This document shows positions 4,961-10,550 of a DNA stretch of 52,306 nucleotides, piece after piece. Position numbers and translations under genes: made by a program. Below the pieces are notes generated by a model. The model did no database searches and was not told where the DNA came from. It saw nothing but the letters and a program-made list of their open reading frames with translations. Origin of the DNA: Prevotella sp. (GTDB taxonomy: Bacteria > Bacteroidota > Bacteroidia > Bacteroidales > Bacteroidaceae); NCBI GenBank assembly GCA_017449025.1, contig JAFSKJ010000059.1, positions 1 to 52,306 on the forward strand. Direction: 5' to 3'. Position 1 is the stretch's first letter. Every line of letters starts with the position of its first letter.

Positions 4961-5034
4961 AGTGGCACTTTACGACGCTAAAGTGGCACTTTTTTGAAAT
5001 TAAGTGCCACTTTACGGTCGTAAAGTGCCACTCT
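4961..5034. repeat. Cluster of palindromic GTGSCAC repeats
   Basis: Four units occur: AGTGGCACTTTACG (4961-4974), TAAAGTGGCACTTTT (4979-4993), AAGTGCCACTTTACG (5002-5016) and CGTAAAGTGCCACTC (5019-5033). The last two form an inverted pair around GT. The same unit makes the tandem array at 23639-23735. Both clusters lie directly upstream of sugar-uptake or sugar-kinase promoters. Confidence 0.85.
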
Positions 5035-5121
5035 GTGGAAGAGGCATGTTTCACGCCATTTTTATACGTGTCCGAATTGTCTGTGAAAAGTGTCATTTCG
5101 TACGTGCGCGCTTAGATTGTG

Positions 5122-5146
5122 GTGGGCGAGGGATGCCCCGCGTTCC
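5122..5146. repeat. Short GC-rich element, copy 1
   Basis: GTGGGCGAGGG followed by ATGCCCCGCGTTCC. It resembles 38094-38117 (TGCGGGCGAGGG then CGCCCGCGCTCC), and both follow ATTGTG. The GGGC/GCCC arms could form a small hairpin. Probably a dispersed intergenic repeat of this lineage. Confidence 0.5.
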
Positions 5147-5264
5147 AAACATCACCCTCCTGTCAATAGGAGTTGAGGGGAAGGTGGGAGTTGAGCAAGA
5201 CGACACAATAAGATAATCCATAAAAATACTGAGAAATTATAGGTTTTTATTGAAAAAGATGTAG

Positions 5265-5272
5265 TATCTTTG
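5265..5272 (+). promoter_or_regulatory. -7 box upstream of the sugar transporter
   Basis: TATCTTTG at 5265-5272. The -33 element is poorly matched (AT-rich, near 5241-5252). Transcription would begin close to the ATG at 5281, which favours the in-frame ATG at 5305 as the real start. Confidence 0.6.
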
Positions 5273-5280
5273 CACCGTGA

Positions 5281-6636
5281 ATGAACCAACAATCAAATTT
5301 AATCATGCAAAACAACAACCGTACATTTCTTTATTTCATCTGTGCCGTCTCGGCCATGGGAGGTCTTCTCTTCGGCTACGACTGGGTGGTGATAGGCGGC
5401 GCCAAGCCGTTCTATGAGTTGTTTTTTGGTATTGGCGGCTCTCCGCTGATGCAAGGTCTTGCCATGACCACGGCCTTGGTGGGCTGTTTGTTCGGAGCCA
5501 TGGTGGCCGGTGCTGCCGCCGACCGCTGGGGGCGCAAGCCGCTGCTCATGGTTTCGGCAGTCCTGTTCACGGTGTCAGCCATCGCCACAGGCCTGTTCAA
5601 CGACTTCACCTTATTTAATATAGCTCGATTTATTGGGGGCGTGGGCATTGGTGTGGCTTCGGCCTTGGCGCCGATGTACATTGCCGAGGTTAGTCCCACG
5701 GAGATTCGCGGGCGCATGGTGAGCCTCAACCAGATGACCATAGTGCTTGGCATACTGGCCGCTCAGGTGGTAAACATGATGCTTGCCCGCGACACGTCTG
5801 TTGCCGAGAGCCAGGCGTGGAATGTGGAATGGGGCTGGCGGTGGATGTTCTGGGCAGAGACGCTTCCCGCCGCGCTTTTCCTTGTGTTGAGCTTCTTCAT
5901 TCCTGAGAGTCCTGTCTACTTGAAACTGAAAGCCCTCTCAAGCCAGCCCCAAGGCAGGGATGTAGAGTCGTCCAACGCCGTTTCAGGCAATCAAGCATCC
6001 CCTACTTGGAAGGAGCTTGGCAAGTCCCGCTACCGCCGAGTATTGGTTCTTGGCCTGATTATTGCCGTATTCCAGCAGTGGTGCGGCACTAACGTCATCT
6101 TCAACTATGCTCAGGAGATATTCGTAGGTGCAGGCTTCGATGTCGACGGCATGTTCATCAACATTGTCATTACGGGCATTGCCAATGTTGTGTTCACCAT
6201 TGTAGCCCTATATACCATTGAGAAGTGGGGACGCCGCACGCTAATACTCATCGGTGCCGGAGGCCTCGGACTTATCTACCTTACGCTTGGCACCTGCTAC
6301 CATTTGGGAACCACCGGCATGGCAATGGTAGCCCTGGTGGTTGCTGCCATCTCCGTCTACGCAATGACGTTGGGACCTGTCACGTGGACGCTGCTGGCCG
6401 AGATATTCCCCAACCGCGTTCGCGGCGTTGCCATGGCCACCTGCACCTTTGCGCTGTGGGTGGGCTGCTGCACTCTCACCTTCTCCTTCCCGTCGATGAA
6501 TGCGGCCCTCGGCAGCAGCGGTACGTTCTGGATCTACAGTGGCATCTGCGCCTGTGCCTTCATCTTCCTGTTCCGCAACTGTCCGGAAACCAAGGGTAAG
6601 AGCTTGGAGGAGCTGGAAAGGGAGTTGGCGAATTAA
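5281..6636 (+). CDS. Sugar-porter family MFS transporter (XylE/GLUT-like)
   Basis: A 451-residue, 12-helix inner-membrane sugar:proton symporter of the sugar-porter family. Family signatures are visible: GGLLFGYDWVVIGG in helix 1, DRWGRKP in the loop after helix 2, AEVSPTEIRGR after helix 4, PESPVYL after helix 6, FQQWCGTN in helix 7, and EKWGRRT after helix 8. It ends RNCPETKGKSLEELE. The -7 box ends at 5272, so the ATG at 5305 (MQNNNRTF) is a better start than 5281, where the message would be nearly leaderless. The loop between helices 6 and 7 carries about 30 extra residues (5929-6020) homologous to a segment of the next gene. Substrate unknown; xylose or a similar sugar is plausible. Confidence 0.92.
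   Translation: MNQQSNLIMQNNNRTFLYFICAVSAMGGLLFGYDWVVIGGAKPFYELFFGIGGSPLMQGLAMTTALVGCLFGAMVAGAAADRWGRKPLLMVSAVLFTVSAIATGLFNDFTLFNIARFIGGVGIGVASALAPMYIAEVSPTEIRGRMVSLNQMTIVLGILAAQVVNMMLARDTSVAESQAWNVEWGWRWMFWAETLPAALFLVLSFFIPESPVYLKLKALSSQPQGRDVESSNAVSGNQASPTWKELGKSRYRRVLVLGLIIAVFQQWCGTNVIFNYAQEIFVGAGFDVDGMFINIVITGIANVVFTIVALYTIEKWGRRTLILIGAGGLGLIYLTLGTCYHLGTTGMAMVALVVAAISVYAMTLGPVTWTLLAEIFPNRVRGVAMATCTFALWVGCCTLTFSFPSMNAALGSSGTFWIYSGICACAFIFLFRNCPETKGKSLEELERELAN
5929..6020 (+). repeat. In-frame palindromic insertion element in the MFS gene
   Basis: Encodes KAL-S-P-GR-V...SG-Q-SP-W-ELG, the same peptide pattern as 8491-8590 in the next gene and read in the same frame. The ends are inverted: TCAAGCC...GGCAGGG on the left, CCCCTACTTGG then AAGGAGCTTGG on the right. 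It falls in the cytoplasmic loop after helix 6, where insertions are tolerated. The TIRs are more degraded than in the second copy. Confidence 0.7.
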
Positions 6637-6673
6637 TTATTCAAGTTCGCAAGCTATGAAAAAAAGGTACAGC

Positions 6674-6750
6674 GACGGCCTGAAAGGCCAACAAGCACTT
6701 AGCCCAGGGCAGCGCCATGGACAGTGAGATTTCTGGCCTTACAGGCCGTC
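6674..6750. repeat. Long imperfect hairpin between MFS and DUF5107 genes
   Basis: GACGGCCTGAAAGGCCA (6674-6690) pairs with TGGCCTTACAGGCCGTC (6734-6750) at 16 of 17 positions across a 43-base loop. The loop includes AGCCCAGGGCAGCGCC, a phrase I recognise from dispersed Bacteroidota intergenic elements. It could attenuate or stabilise the message between the two genes. There is no clean T tract. Confidence 0.7.
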
Positions 6751-6811
6751 TTTGCGGAACATGCGAAAGTTGTATTAATTATAGAACATAACTAAAAAGA
6801 ATAACACAAAA

Positions 6812-9800
6812 ATGGTAAAAGCTTGGAGAGAAATAGTTACTATCCCAACCTATGAGGTGGGAAAGGCAGAGAAGAATCCCATTTTCTTGGAGAAACGAGT
6901 GTATCAGGGTTCGAGCGGAGTGGTATATCCCTACCCCGTCATCGAGAAGATAGCCAACGAGCCTACACCGCACGAGTGGAAGGTGGTTTTCTTGGAGAAC
7001 GATTACATCAAGGTGATGGTGATGCCGGAATTGGGCGGGCGCATACAGATGGCATACGACAAAATCAAGAAGCGCCACTTTGTCTACTACAACCACGTCA
7101 TCAAGCCGGCGTTAGTGGGACTTACCGGACCGTGGATCAGCGGCGGCATAGAGTTCAACTGGCCGCAGCACCACCGCCCGTCGACCTACCTGCCCATAGA
7201 CTGCGACATTGTGGAGAACGAGGACGGCAGCGTCACCGTGTGGGTGAACGAGATGGAGCGCATGTTCCACCAGAAGGGCATGGCAGGCTTCACCCTGCGC
7301 CCCGGCTGCGCATACTTGGAGATTCAAGGCCGTGTCAGCAACCGTACGCCGCTGCCGCAGACATTCCTCTGGTGGGCAAACCCTGCCGTGGAGGTCAACG
7401 ACGAGTACCAGAGCGTGTTCCCGCCCGATGTCAATGCTGTCTTCGACCACGGCAAGCGCGCCGTATCAAGCTTCCCCATAGCCACTGGCACATACTACAA
7501 GATGGACTATTCGGCAGGCGTGGACATCTCGAACTACAAGAACATAAAGGTGCCTACGTCGTACATGGCAGTGAACTCGAAGTACGACTTCGAGGGCGGC
7601 TACGAGAACGACAGCCACGGAGGCATGCTTCATGTGGCCAGCCACCACTTCTCGCCAGGAAAGAAGCAGTGGACGTGGGGCAACGGCAACTTCGGACGTG
7701 CCTGGGACAGGAACCTGACGGACAAAGATGAGAAAGGATGCTTCCGGCCCTACATAGAGCTGATGGCGGGTGTGTATACCGAGAACCAGCCCGACTTCAC
7801 GTGGCTCATGCCTTACGAAGAGAAGCAGTTTGTGCAGTACTTCATGCCCTACCGCGAGCTGGGTATGGTGAAGCAGGCGAGCAAGGACTTCATTCTGAGC
7901 ATGGAAAGCTTCACGCAGCCCTCATCCAAAGAGAGCTTGGTGTCATTCAAGGTGTTGGCCACCAGTAGGCAGGAGGTACGCATAGTGCTGAGCAACAGGC
8001 AGGGCGAGGTATATTATAATAAGGTGGTGACACTGTCGCCCGAAGAAGTCTTCGAGGAGGAGGTAGATGTGAAAGGGGCTAAGCTCGACGAACTGCTGTT
8101 TACCATTCTCCCACCTCTCGACACTCGCCACTCACCCCTGTTAACGTGGCAAGCCGAGGACGATGCCATACGTCCCATACCCGATGCCGCCGAGGCGGCG
8201 CTGCCGCCACAAGAGACCAAGACCAACGACCAGCTCTATCTCACAGGCCTCCATTTGGAACAGTACCGCCACGCCACGTGGAGTGCCCTCGACTACTATG
8301 AGGAAGCCCTGCGCCGCGACCCCAACGACGTGCGCTGCCTGAACCAGATGGGACTGTGGTATCTGCGCCGCGGCAGGTTCCACAAAGCCGAGGAGTATCT
8401 GCGCCGAGCCGTCAGAATATGGCAGAAGCGCAATCCAAACCCCTACGACGGCGAAGCCATCTTCAACCTCGCCCTCACGCTGAAGTATTTGAAAGCCCTT
8501 CCAAGCACTCCCGAAGGGAGGGAAGTTAAAATACATAATGCATCAGGTTATCAGACATCCCCTCTTTGGGAGGAGCTTGGTGAGGCTTACAATCTCTTCT
8601 GGAAGTCAACGTGGAACAAGGCATGGGCAGATGCCGGCTACTTCGAGGCGGCTTGCATCAGCACAGCGCAAGCCCGCTACGACGATGCGCTGGACGAGCT
8701 GAACCGCTGCCTCATCTTCAACAGCTGCAACCATAAGGCGCGTGCACTGAAAGCGGCAGTGCTGCGCAAGCTGAACGAAGGCAGACAGAAGGGCGGACTG
8801 CAGATGGGCACCTCACGCGAGCTGAACGAGAGACTGGCACTCATCAGGGAGTCGCTCGCCATAGACTCCTTCAACTATGGCATACGCTACGAACAATGGC
8901 TGCTAACCAAGGACAAGGACCTGCTGAAGGAGCTGAAGACACTGCTGCGCAAGAGCTGCCATAACTACGACGAGCTGGCTCTCGACTATGTGCAGGCCGG
9001 ACTCTACGACGAAGCATGCGACATCTGGGCGATGGCCGAGAGCGAGAAGGCCGTATCGCCAATGACATATTACTATTTAGGCTACTCGAAGACCATGCAA
9101 GGCAAGAACGCAGGAGCAGACACACTCACAGCCATGCAAACACAGGACGAGGCAAAGGCTCTCTTCGCCAAAGCAGAGGCCTTGAAGCCCGACTACTGCT
9201 TCCCCAACCGGTTGGAGGACATTCTGGCCTTGGAAACCGCCAAAGCCATCAACCCCGACGGTGCACGCGCACCTTATTACCTCGGCTGCCTCTACTACGA
9301 CAAGCGGCAGTACGACCTCGCCGTAGGCAATTGGGAACTGTCTGCCAAGCTCGACCCCATGTTCCCCACAGTATGGCGCAATCTCGCCCTGGCACGCTTC
9401 AACAAGTCCGAATTGTCGGTTAGCCGTTTGCAGGCCGTGGAATACATGGAAAAGGCTTTCCAGCTCGACAGCAACGACAGCCGCATGCTTATGGAACTCG
9501 ACCAGCTCTACAAGCATCTGAACAAGCCCCACCAGTTCCGACTCGACAATCTGCAGAAGCACCCCAAGCTCATTGCGCGGCGCGACGACCTGGTGTTAGA
9601 GCAAATCACCCTGCTCAACCAGCTGGGACGCTACGAGGAGGCCATGGCGAAGCTCGACGCCCACCAGTTCCATCCTTGGGAGGGCGGCGAGGGCAAGGTG
9701 CCGGCGCAGTATCAGATTTGCCGCATAGAACAGGCAAAGAAACTGCTGGCCGACAATCCGCAGTCGACAAAGGCCAGACGGCTTTTGGAGGAGTGCCTCG

Positions 9801-10303
9801 ACTATCCCCCACATCTTGGCGAGGGCAAGCTCTACGGAGCACAGGACAACGACATACTCTATTTCCTCGGCCGCTACGAAGAGGGAACAGCAGGGCCCAC
9901 CGAGCCTGCAGCTGCCATGTACTACAACGACGCCAAGCCCGACAAAATCTTCTATGCCGGCCTTTGCTACCTTAAGTTAGGACAGCAAGACAAGGCGAAC
10001 AGCCTCTTCCACAAGCTCGTAAACTACGGCAAGCAGCACATCTTCGACCACGTCACCATGGACTATTTCGCTGTCTCGCTGCCCGACCTCCTCATCTGGG
10101 AAGGAAGCGGTGGGAATCAGCTCTCCACACTCGACGCGAAAAACAGAATACACTGTCTCTACATGCTCGCACTCGGATACTACGGCCTGGGCGACAAAGA
10201 CCACGCCGAGCACTATCTCAGACAGGTAGAGGCCGACGACGTAAACCATCAAGGTGCACAGGCTCTGCGCTCACTAATGAAAACAATTGATGTTTCCCAT
10301 TAG
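6812..10303 (+). CDS. DUF5107 domain protein with C-terminal TPR repeats
   Basis: A 1163-residue protein. Residues 1-400 form the DUF5107 region (VVFLENDYIKVMVMPELGGRI..., GGIEFNWPQHH, WWANPAVEVND). This is a beta-sandwich resembling galactose-mutarotase/lyase folds, with a PELGGRI strand and conserved His and Glu. From about residue 480 to the end there are many TPR-type hairpins (SALDYYEEALRRDPNDV, KAEEYLRRAV, LAVGNWELSAKLDP). No signal peptide is visible, so it is probably cytosolic. In Bacteroidota such proteins commonly neighbour sugar transporters, which suggests a role in handling the imported sugar. This is inference, since no reaction is established from the sequence. It carries an in-frame repeat insertion at 8491-8590, before the TPR hairpin near residue 600. 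Confidence 0.88.
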   Translation: MVKAWREIVTIPTYEVGKAEKNPIFLEKRVYQGSSGVVYPYPVIEKIANEPTPHEWKVVFLENDYIKVMVMPELGGRIQMAYDKIKKRHFVYYNHVIKPALVGLTGPWISGGIEFNWPQHHRPSTYLPIDCDIVENEDGSVTVWVNEMERMFHQKGMAGFTLRPGCAYLEIQGRVSNRTPLPQTFLWWANPAVEVNDEYQSVFPPDVNAVFDHGKRAVSSFPIATGTYYKMDYSAGVDISNYKNIKVPTSYMAVNSKYDFEGGYENDSHGGMLHVASHHFSPGKKQWTWGNGNFGRAWDRNLTDKDEKGCFRPYIELMAGVYTENQPDFTWLMPYEEKQFVQYFMPYRELGMVKQASKDFILSMESFTQPSSKESLVSFKVLATSRQEVRIVLSNRQGEVYYNKVVTLSPEEVFEEEVDVKGAKLDELLFTILPPLDTRHSPLLTWQAEDDAIRPIPDAAEAALPPQETKTNDQLYLTGLHLEQYRHATWSALDYYEEALRRDPNDVRCLNQMGLWYLRRGRFHKAEEYLRRAVRIWQKRNPNPYDGEAIFNLALTLKYLKALPSTPEGREVKIHNASGYQTSPLWEELGEAYNLFWKSTWNKAWADAGYFEAACISTAQARYDDALDELNRCLIFNSCNHKARALKAAVLRKLNEGRQKGGLQMGTSRELNERLALIRESLAIDSFNYGIRYEQWLLTKDKDLLKELKTLLRKSCHNYDELALDYVQAGLYDEACDIWAMAESEKAVSPMTYYYLGYSKTMQGKNAGADTLTAMQTQDEAKALFAKAEALKPDYCFPNRLEDILALETAKAINPDGARAPYYLGCLYYDKRQYDLAVGNWELSAKLDPMFPTVWRNLALARFNKSELSVSRLQAVEYMEKAFQLDSNDSRMLMELDQLYKHLNKPHQFRLDNLQKHPKLIARRDDLVLEQITLLNQLGRYEEAMAKLDAHQFHPWEGGEGKVPAQYQICRIEQAKKLLADNPQSTKARRLLEECLDYPPHLGEGKLYGAQDNDILYFLGRYEEGTAGPTEPAAAMYYNDAKPDKIFYAGLCYLKLGQQDKANSLFHKLVNYGKQHIFDHVTMDYFAVSLPDLLIWEGSGGNQLSTLDAKNRIHCLYMLALGYYGLGDKDHAEHYLRQVEADDVNHQGAQALRSLMKTIDVSH
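8491..8590 (+). repeat. In-frame palindromic insertion element in the DUF5107 gene
   Basis: The left end GAAAGCCCTTCCAAGC then ACTCCC mirrors the complement of the right end, GTAAGCCTCACCAAGC then TCCTCCC. CCCGAAGGGAGGG and CCCCTCTTTGGGAGG make internal palindromes. Its peptide shares 16 identities over 27 aligned residues (19 of 30 when the preceding KAL is counted) with the element in the MFS gene, in the same reading frame. It resembles, by analogy, the Rickettsia palindromic elements that insert in coding sequence. Confidence 0.75.
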
Positions 10304-10314
10304 AGTAATTATTC

Positions 10315-10400
10315 GACGACAACTTAGACAACTTGAACAACAGTTGCGACCGCAGTCTTCGGAATTCAGATAAGTTGTTTTAGTTGTCATAGTTGTCGTC
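10315..10400 (+). terminator. Long hairpin terminator downstream of the DUF5107 gene
   Basis: The arm 10315-10341 (GACGACAACTTAGACAACTT...) pairs with 10374-10400 (...AGTTGTCATAGTTGTCGTC) at 23 of 27 positions over a 32-base loop. TTTTATTT follows at once. It is longer than a usual intrinsic terminator but well placed to end transcription from the transporter operon. Confidence 0.65.
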
Positions 10401-10442
10401 TTTTATTTGATTAAGAGATCTAAAATCATAGGAGGTAACATT

Positions 10443-10550
10443 ATGACACTGACATAATTCTTTGCGATTGTAGGCCTTATCGGCCCCGTAGCATTCAAAG
10501 GCGCTATTATCTATTTCCACCATCAGGACCTTATGCTTAAAGGAAACTGA
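10443..10550 (+). pseudogene. Micro-ORF with strong SD and in-frame stop
   Basis: A perfect AGGAGG (10430-10435) precedes ATG at 10443. The frame reads MTLT, stop (TAA 10455-10457), then FFAIVGLIGPVAFKGAIIYF and HHQDLMLKGN to TGA at 10550. The part after the stop looks like a single membrane helix, so this may be a small membrane protein gene broken at codon 5. Alternatively only the tetrapeptide is made. Nothing here identifies a family. Confidence 0.35.

Follow-up and report, generated by a model that had tools for sequence, protein, structure and literature searches.

Short palindromic elements translated in frame in Prevotella genes, and their association with a DUF559 nuclease gene

Palindromes of ~100-150 bp that lie in frame in unrelated genes and are translated have been described in Rickettsia (PMC10969869, in its accessible part), and hairpin doublets are known as REPINs, in which two hairpin repeats lie inverted about a variable spacer (PMC3116915, likewise an excerpt). 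Here we describe a ~95-nucleotide (nt) palindromic element common to two neighbouring genes of a Prevotella sp., one for an MFS transporter and one for a DUF5107-TPR protein, and inserted in both in the identical reading frame. The window analysed, 52,306 nt long, is contig C108 (JAFSKJ010000059.1) of an incomplete metagenome-assembled genome (MAG; 3,503,132 bases in 134 contigs, completeness 80.65%), hereafter the own genome. We consider it probable that the two segments are non-autonomous, coding-compatible derivatives, similar to miniature inverted-repeat transposable elements (MITEs), of palindromic-ended mobile elements that carry a DUF559 gene. Coding palindromes and hairpin doublets are thus already known, and the tie to DUF559 is, as far as searches of open-access literature show, not described under such terms; these searches, which leave subscription papers outside, gave no title on DUF559 genes with palindromic ends or on Bacteroidota palindromes lying in frame, which is weak evidence of absence.

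The Prevotella palindromes resemble the Rickettsia elements in being translated in frame, in 14 copies within 11 unrelated host genes. They differ in phylum and presumably in sequence, and an endonuclease-bearing long form was found in the Prevotella family; the comparison is one of descriptions, that of the Rickettsia elements being taken from the accessible part of the source. By this analogy, the likeness appears to be one of behaviour and not of membership. A sequence-only reading of the window had also proposed a Rickettsia-like element; the behaviour agrees, while the DUF559-bracketing long form and the replacement of host loops were missed by it.

Two translated copies and the corresponding sites of relatives

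The MFS (Sugar_tr) transporter gene (5281..6636, + strand; Pfam PF00083, E 3.4e-97) contains copy 1, 31 codons at 5929..6021 (+) that read KALSSQPQGRDVESSNAVSGNQASPTWKELG, and the DUF5107-TPR gene (6812..10303, + strand; Pfam PF17128, E 2.1e-52) contains copy 2, 32 codons at 8492..8587 (+) that read KALPSTPEGREVKIHNASGYQTSPLWEELGEA. Both were delimited by profiles and aligned relatives, and in both an A-type half comes first and a B-type half last. The left half of copy 2 (8493..8527, +) matches the half-element profile at E 1.3e-8; its right half (8552..8588, -) does so at E 9.2e-7 and fits the B pattern with one mismatch. Both halves of copy 1 are decayed, the left one (5930..5963, +) matching at E 0.026 and the right one (5993..6020, -) at E 0.012, with three mismatches to the B pattern. 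Taken alone, copy 1 is the weaker case on these values; its identity is secured because three related genomes have a clean copy at that MFS site.

A profile made from the two copies gave strong matches in the window at these two places alone, besides the reverse complement of copy 2. Thus, copy 2 is a good palindrome, its reverse complement matching this profile at E 2.5e-8, and copy 1 is a decayed one (E 0.035). The in-frame segment shared by the two genes had been pointed out in the sequence-only reading, with coordinates right within a few bases, and the observation is confirmed. Just past the DUF5107 stop codon, ~95 nt at 10310-10404 fold on themselves (GACGACAACTTAGACAAC...TTGTCATAGTTGTCGTC) and are apparently another repeat, with Rfam matches at chance level.

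Comparison within a genus sample, on aligned loci, indicates where the segment is missing. It is absent from 10 of 14 MFS orthologues and present in four; among DUF5107 orthologues it is absent from 19 of 20 and present in one. Of 150 genus genomes, 58 contain DUF5107, usually seen as a pair of matches that flank the element. At both sites the host loop is replaced and not simply interrupted, ~23 residues between PVYL and KY being concerned in the MFS protein. Both loops are hypervariable, with different coding repeats in relatives (L232, L234, L245, L247 and L238); that of L247 is an NDQTTNHQ-like tandem repeat. As judged from these alignments, the MFS and DUF5107 loops are generally tolerant.

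Copies, anatomy and reading frame of the element

The DUF5107 copy, used as a query, retrieves 11 places in the own genome, itself included. The end pattern occurs at 40 places against none for the reversed-pattern control, and the B-type end pattern at 12, again against none. The 40 places include a related second palindrome family with ends AAGCCCACCCCCAACCCC; two-ended copies number at least 17, of which 16 were found by profile (28 stretches and the window) and the last is the MFS copy. The pattern, when sought in GTDB species genomes, gave at least 116 stretches, and the 80 listed come from Prevotella, Prevotellaceae, Bacteroidaceae or Bacteroidales. The second family (AAGCCCACCCCCAACCCCTCCCCAAGGGAGGGGAGT) was seen in the own genome in L046 (8830-8870), L057, L058, L063 and L066, lying in frame within long open reading frames in L058 and L063. 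A trpE-like reading frame in L004 has an insert, SPPHPPLGGESRSASITPLGGGQGG, which looks like another coding palindrome.

Further copies and empty sites in homologues are what the sequence-only reading had expected of an inserted, still-translated element in unrelated hosts, and the copies, the in-frame genes and the empty sites all bear it out; neither of the observations that it named as refuting was made, the orthologues compared being all from the genus sample. That ordinary variable loops, or a gene duplication, came to look alike by chance is scarcely credible: both sites are indeed hypervariable in relatives, but the copies are found by the dozen in unrelated genes and at gene borders, reversed patterns have no match and the ends are sharp. 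Chance likeness is excluded for copy 2, and copy 1 is secured by the copies in related genomes.

The anatomy was derived from 145 sequences: the 116 GTDB stretches, 28 stretches of the own genome and the window. Profiles identified 273 halves, 97 of them single, and 88 inverted pairs (60 A..A, 26 A/B and 2 B..B) spanning 89 to 220 nt. The element consists of two inverted hairpin halves of ~45 nt, of types A and B, that flank a variable core. The base profile (225 A and 42 B halves) shows a half of ~45 nt with sharp ends within an A-rich margin, the A half being partly fixed by the search pattern. A halves (AAGCCCACCCAAGCCCTCCCNAAGGGAGGGATGTTT...) form the hairpin CCCTCCC-N-AA-GGGAGGG, and B halves (AAGCCTCCCCAAGCCCCTCCNAAGGAGGGGATGTTTG...) form CCCCTCC-N-AA-GGAGGGG. 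The differences between the types are paired changes that retain the hairpin. In the same base profile the core between the halves has no conservation across copies. Target-site duplications are absent from the 79 anchored elements, in which the longest direct word averages 2.13 as compared with 2.11 in shuffled pairs.

An open frame that runs through the pair and 30 codons beyond it on either side is present in 25 of the 88 pairs; 14 elements, in 11 host genes, were accepted as lying in frame within genes. The other 11 spanning-frame elements (L050, L052, L061, L062, L123, L127, L128, L134, L148, L149 and L167) were dropped as non-coding by the codon model or antisense; several of them show other frames, and retaining them would weaken the frame bias. 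The hosts code for a UvrA-like protein, a CarbopepD_reg_2 protein, an MMPL protein, an RND permease, the MFS and DUF5107 proteins, a UPF0004/Radical-SAM RimO-like protein, an ABC ATPase, a product each of L118 and L131, and an RluA-like protein in L155, a case kept on visual inspection even though its flanks were not classed as coding by the codon model. The frame KAHPSPP...NQTSPPxEGLGEA is used in 10 of the 11 hosts. The A half precedes the B half in eight of nine A/B hosts, the order being reversed in L131. A/B elements are over-represented in frame: 11 A/B and 3 A/A copies against 14 A/B and 54 A/A elsewhere (p 6e-5) or, counted by host gene, 9 A/B against 2 A/A in frame (p 1.5e-4). A search with the peptide that the element codes for gave matches at E 0.01 in 24 of 150 genus genomes.

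Other copies lie at gene borders, where halves form start regions. In three SusD-family proteins (L043, L046 and L055) and an FGE-sulfatase-like protein (L010), assigned by Pfam, the signal peptide is supplied by the element; we presume that these element-derived signal peptides contain a lipobox.

Since the inserts interrupt conserved proteins, one might suppose that they are removed after transcription or translation, as introns or inteins are. We regard this as very unlikely. Among the Pfam and NCBIfam matches listed for six short-insert proteins and the DUF559 fusions described below there is no intein or intron domain, and no self-splicing domain model of the kind that distinguishes inteins. 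An Rfam scan of window positions 5000-10500 gave nothing credible, so that no known RNA family was found there, and N-terminal fusions would not need removal. The inserted peptide probably does little and is tolerated.

A DUF559 nuclease gene between the halves

Several of the single halves proved to lie beside a gene: in six loci (L108, L148, L151, L170, L172 and L173), halves of the A/B family bracket a DUF559 gene. The protein of L170 matches DUF559 (PF04480) at E 4.2e-31 in Pfam. The DNA of the six loci aligns end to end; the 5' half is of type A in five of them, and in L148 the outer halves are of type B. The L172 element lies at the purA-hisS border, which in the own genome is occupied by a short A..A copy (L042). 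Short copies are read as internally deleted forms because one of them, the A..A copy L141, retains a DUF559 remnant (E 3.4e-20, whereas each core shuffled 20 times gave no match). In being short, inverted-ended and internally deleted forms of a longer coding element, the Prevotella elements are similar to MITEs derived from insertion sequences (IS), but they lack a target-site duplication, and neither a DDE nor an HUH transposase was seen in the long form.

One DUF559 gene has been placed in the EDxHD homing family (PMC9403480, accessible part), which is reviewed in PMC3943268 (accessible part). A model of the L170 protein (mean confidence, pLDDT, 80.6) matches the structures 3hrl (NGO0050; E 1.3e-8), 3r3p (I-Bth0305I catalytic domain; E 1.0e-5, TM 0.78 by target) and 1vsr (Vsr; E 3.8e-3), and residues D64, E75, D77 and H81 are invariant in 13 sequences. 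The DUF559 catalytic domain is accordingly predicted to have the fold of EDxHD/Vsr-like homing endonucleases. I-Bth0305I, as the available part of PMC3943268 presents it, stands among group I intron homing endonucleases; the DUF559 gene differs in that it lies between its own palindromic ends and that there are short derivatives from which it is missing.

As the six loci were drawn by a scan for A ends, an independent sample was formed of 30 genus loci picked by DUF559 (PF04480) alone. Their best inverted arms have a median of 28.9 between the two flanks; the value is 10.7 when flanks are mismatched (n=120; 95th percentile 18.3) and 9.2 in other windows taken from these 30 loci (n=59; 95th percentile 10.8). 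With flanks set by the domain, the arms reach at least 16 in 26 of 30 loci and at least 18.3 in 24. Moreover, the DUF559 protein and the end sequences co-vary: the Mantel r is 0.703 for 33 loci and 0.712 for 26 independent genus loci (0 of 5000 permutations for the 26), and on thinning of the 26 it remains 0.554 for 20 loci at <70% identity (0 of 5000) and 0.434 for 14 loci at <60% identity (46 of 5000). Thus, DUF559 is bracketed by the halves, and protein and ends vary together. Mobilisation of the short elements by DUF559 would account for this association.

Two other accounts of the association have to be weighed. One holds that DUF559 acts on hairpins in some other way (repair, a restriction-like role or selfish post-segregational action), the palindromes being spread by another enzyme or by recombination. 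Vsr, which DUF559 resembles, is itself a repair nuclease, and co-variation shows just that protein and ends travel jointly; however, inverted-end bracketing, recurrence at unrelated sites, a short deletion derivative and a fold like that of homing endonucleases fit a mobile unit, and we judge this account rather unlikely.

According to the other, which we think still less plausible, the elements are REPINs, that is, two REP sequences moved by an HUH tyrosine transposase (RAYT), and DUF559 is a passenger. The architecture is the same, with hairpin repeats that flank a variable spacer in inverted orientation, and so are non-autonomy and a high copy number (88 pairs here; REPINs and REPtrons as described in the excerpt of PMC3116915). 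The own genome has four Y1_Tnp matches, three of them above the cut-off, and one of these genes is present in four of six element-rich relatives. However, the Prevotella halves have no adjoining RAYT gene (four own and six relative Y1_Tnp matches) and have DUF559 instead, and the elements are often intragenic and translated. Near the own Y1_Tnp genes there is nothing better than a related palindrome with a weak match (L085, E 0.007), two of these genes (L082 and L083) are flanked by other repeats (CAGGGGTTCCGC... and GGGGACAGGTT...), and those of relatives have only weak matches, in L283 (E 0.006 to 0.05), more than 1 kb away. RAYT was rejected as the mover, as neither in the own genome nor in the six element-rich relatives do the Y1_Tnp genes have true A/B flanks. 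The tag of GTAG REPs was not seen at the stem end in the 225 A and 42 B halves. In the A halves the stem is followed by GGGATGTT/GGGATGTC, which is near TGTC, one of the tags (CGTC, TGTC and CCTC) of CGTC REPs; this comparison concerns the tag alone.

Several observations weigh against derivation of the short elements from DUF559 elements. Movement was not observed, and DUF559 could be a passenger or use hairpins otherwise. A DUF559 trace is found in just one of 83 short cores. The six A/B-DUF559 loci are a biased sample, four of them lying at one genomic site; four of the 30 genus loci are without clear arms, and the top value of the mismatched-flank control is 160, from related loci with common arms. 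The own genome has one DUF559 gene, with ends of another type, and the enzyme matching its A/B copies was not seen in this MAG, which is 80.65% complete. Across Bacteroidota the bracketing is weaker, with 12 of 29 loci above the control 95th percentile of 17.0. Finally, a structure model of the MFS protein with its insert was poor (mean pLDDT 45.1) and was set aside, so that surface exposure of the loop is unsupported.

The single DUF559 gene of the own genome (L288, C3:13474-13794) lies, by eye, between genes resembling a 2-oxoacid oxidoreductase pair, and the ends of these neighbours seem to be coded by the arms of the element.

DUF559 in host proteins, spread beyond the genus and biological meaning

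DUF559 was found in 87 of 150 genus genomes and in 109 of 198 Bacteroidota genomes. Forty-nine of the 150 genus matches listed lie in open frames (stop to stop) of at least 250 residues, and some are joined to host proteins. By Pfam, the domain lies within an ABC-F ATPase (L306) and within an SF1 helicase (L309), where it separates Walker A from the remainder of AAA_11. In methionine synthase (MetH; L340, and by sequence L346) it is found between the two B12 domains, and in LeuRS (L320, and by sequence L323) at the start of the editing domain. N-terminal fusions join it to SpoU, YgbB (IspF), guanylate kinase and an amino-acid kinase. The arms of the LeuRS and MetH copies are absent or decayed. 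Among 12 plasmid DUF559 genes hand-picked from 52 listed (Alphaproteobacteria and Deinococcus), nine lie between inverted palindromes, with arms of at least 20.8, as compared with a control 95th percentile of 15.7 and maximum of 25.0 (n=132). In Sphingomonas plasmids (L348, L349 and L350) such genes lie between yqeY and dnaG, pntAA and pntAB, and sufB and sufC. We take the arms of the Sinorhizobium meliloti locus L352 to resemble Rhizobium mosaic elements.

We propose that DUF559, as a Vsr/EDxHD-type nuclease, would cut a recipient site, whereupon repair would copy the element in; short forms would be internally deleted copies moved in trans by DUF559. Entry by cut and repair would explain both the missing target-site duplication and the lost host loop residues. 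Insertions at gene borders may provide genes with a stop codon, a start region or a signal peptide, and translated insertions in tolerant loops would survive selection, since the halves allow stop-free reading in the frame needed.

A broader proposal, in our opinion tentative and short of an even chance, is that a bacteria-wide class of elements with palindromic ends, inserted in frame in genes and translated, owes its mobility to the DUF559 nuclease, and that the short derivatives of this class include REP-like families so far lacking an enzyme, such as the CGTC REPs. RPE-4 and RPE-6, which are CGTC REPs, were described without a dedicated transposase in a 2013 survey (PMC3733652, as far as its accessible text goes), and for palindromic repeats of this kind DUF559 would be a candidate enzyme. 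If the proposal is true, such a class would constitute a route of genome-wide spread apart from RAYT and DDE transposases. If the derivation of the short elements from DUF559 elements holds, a function would be assigned to the very common 'DUF559' gene. Working proteins would then be seen to acquire new peptides from mobile DNA by a natural route, in their loops, signal peptides and termini, and the spread of coding palindromes of the Rickettsia type would become testable in culturable bacteria.

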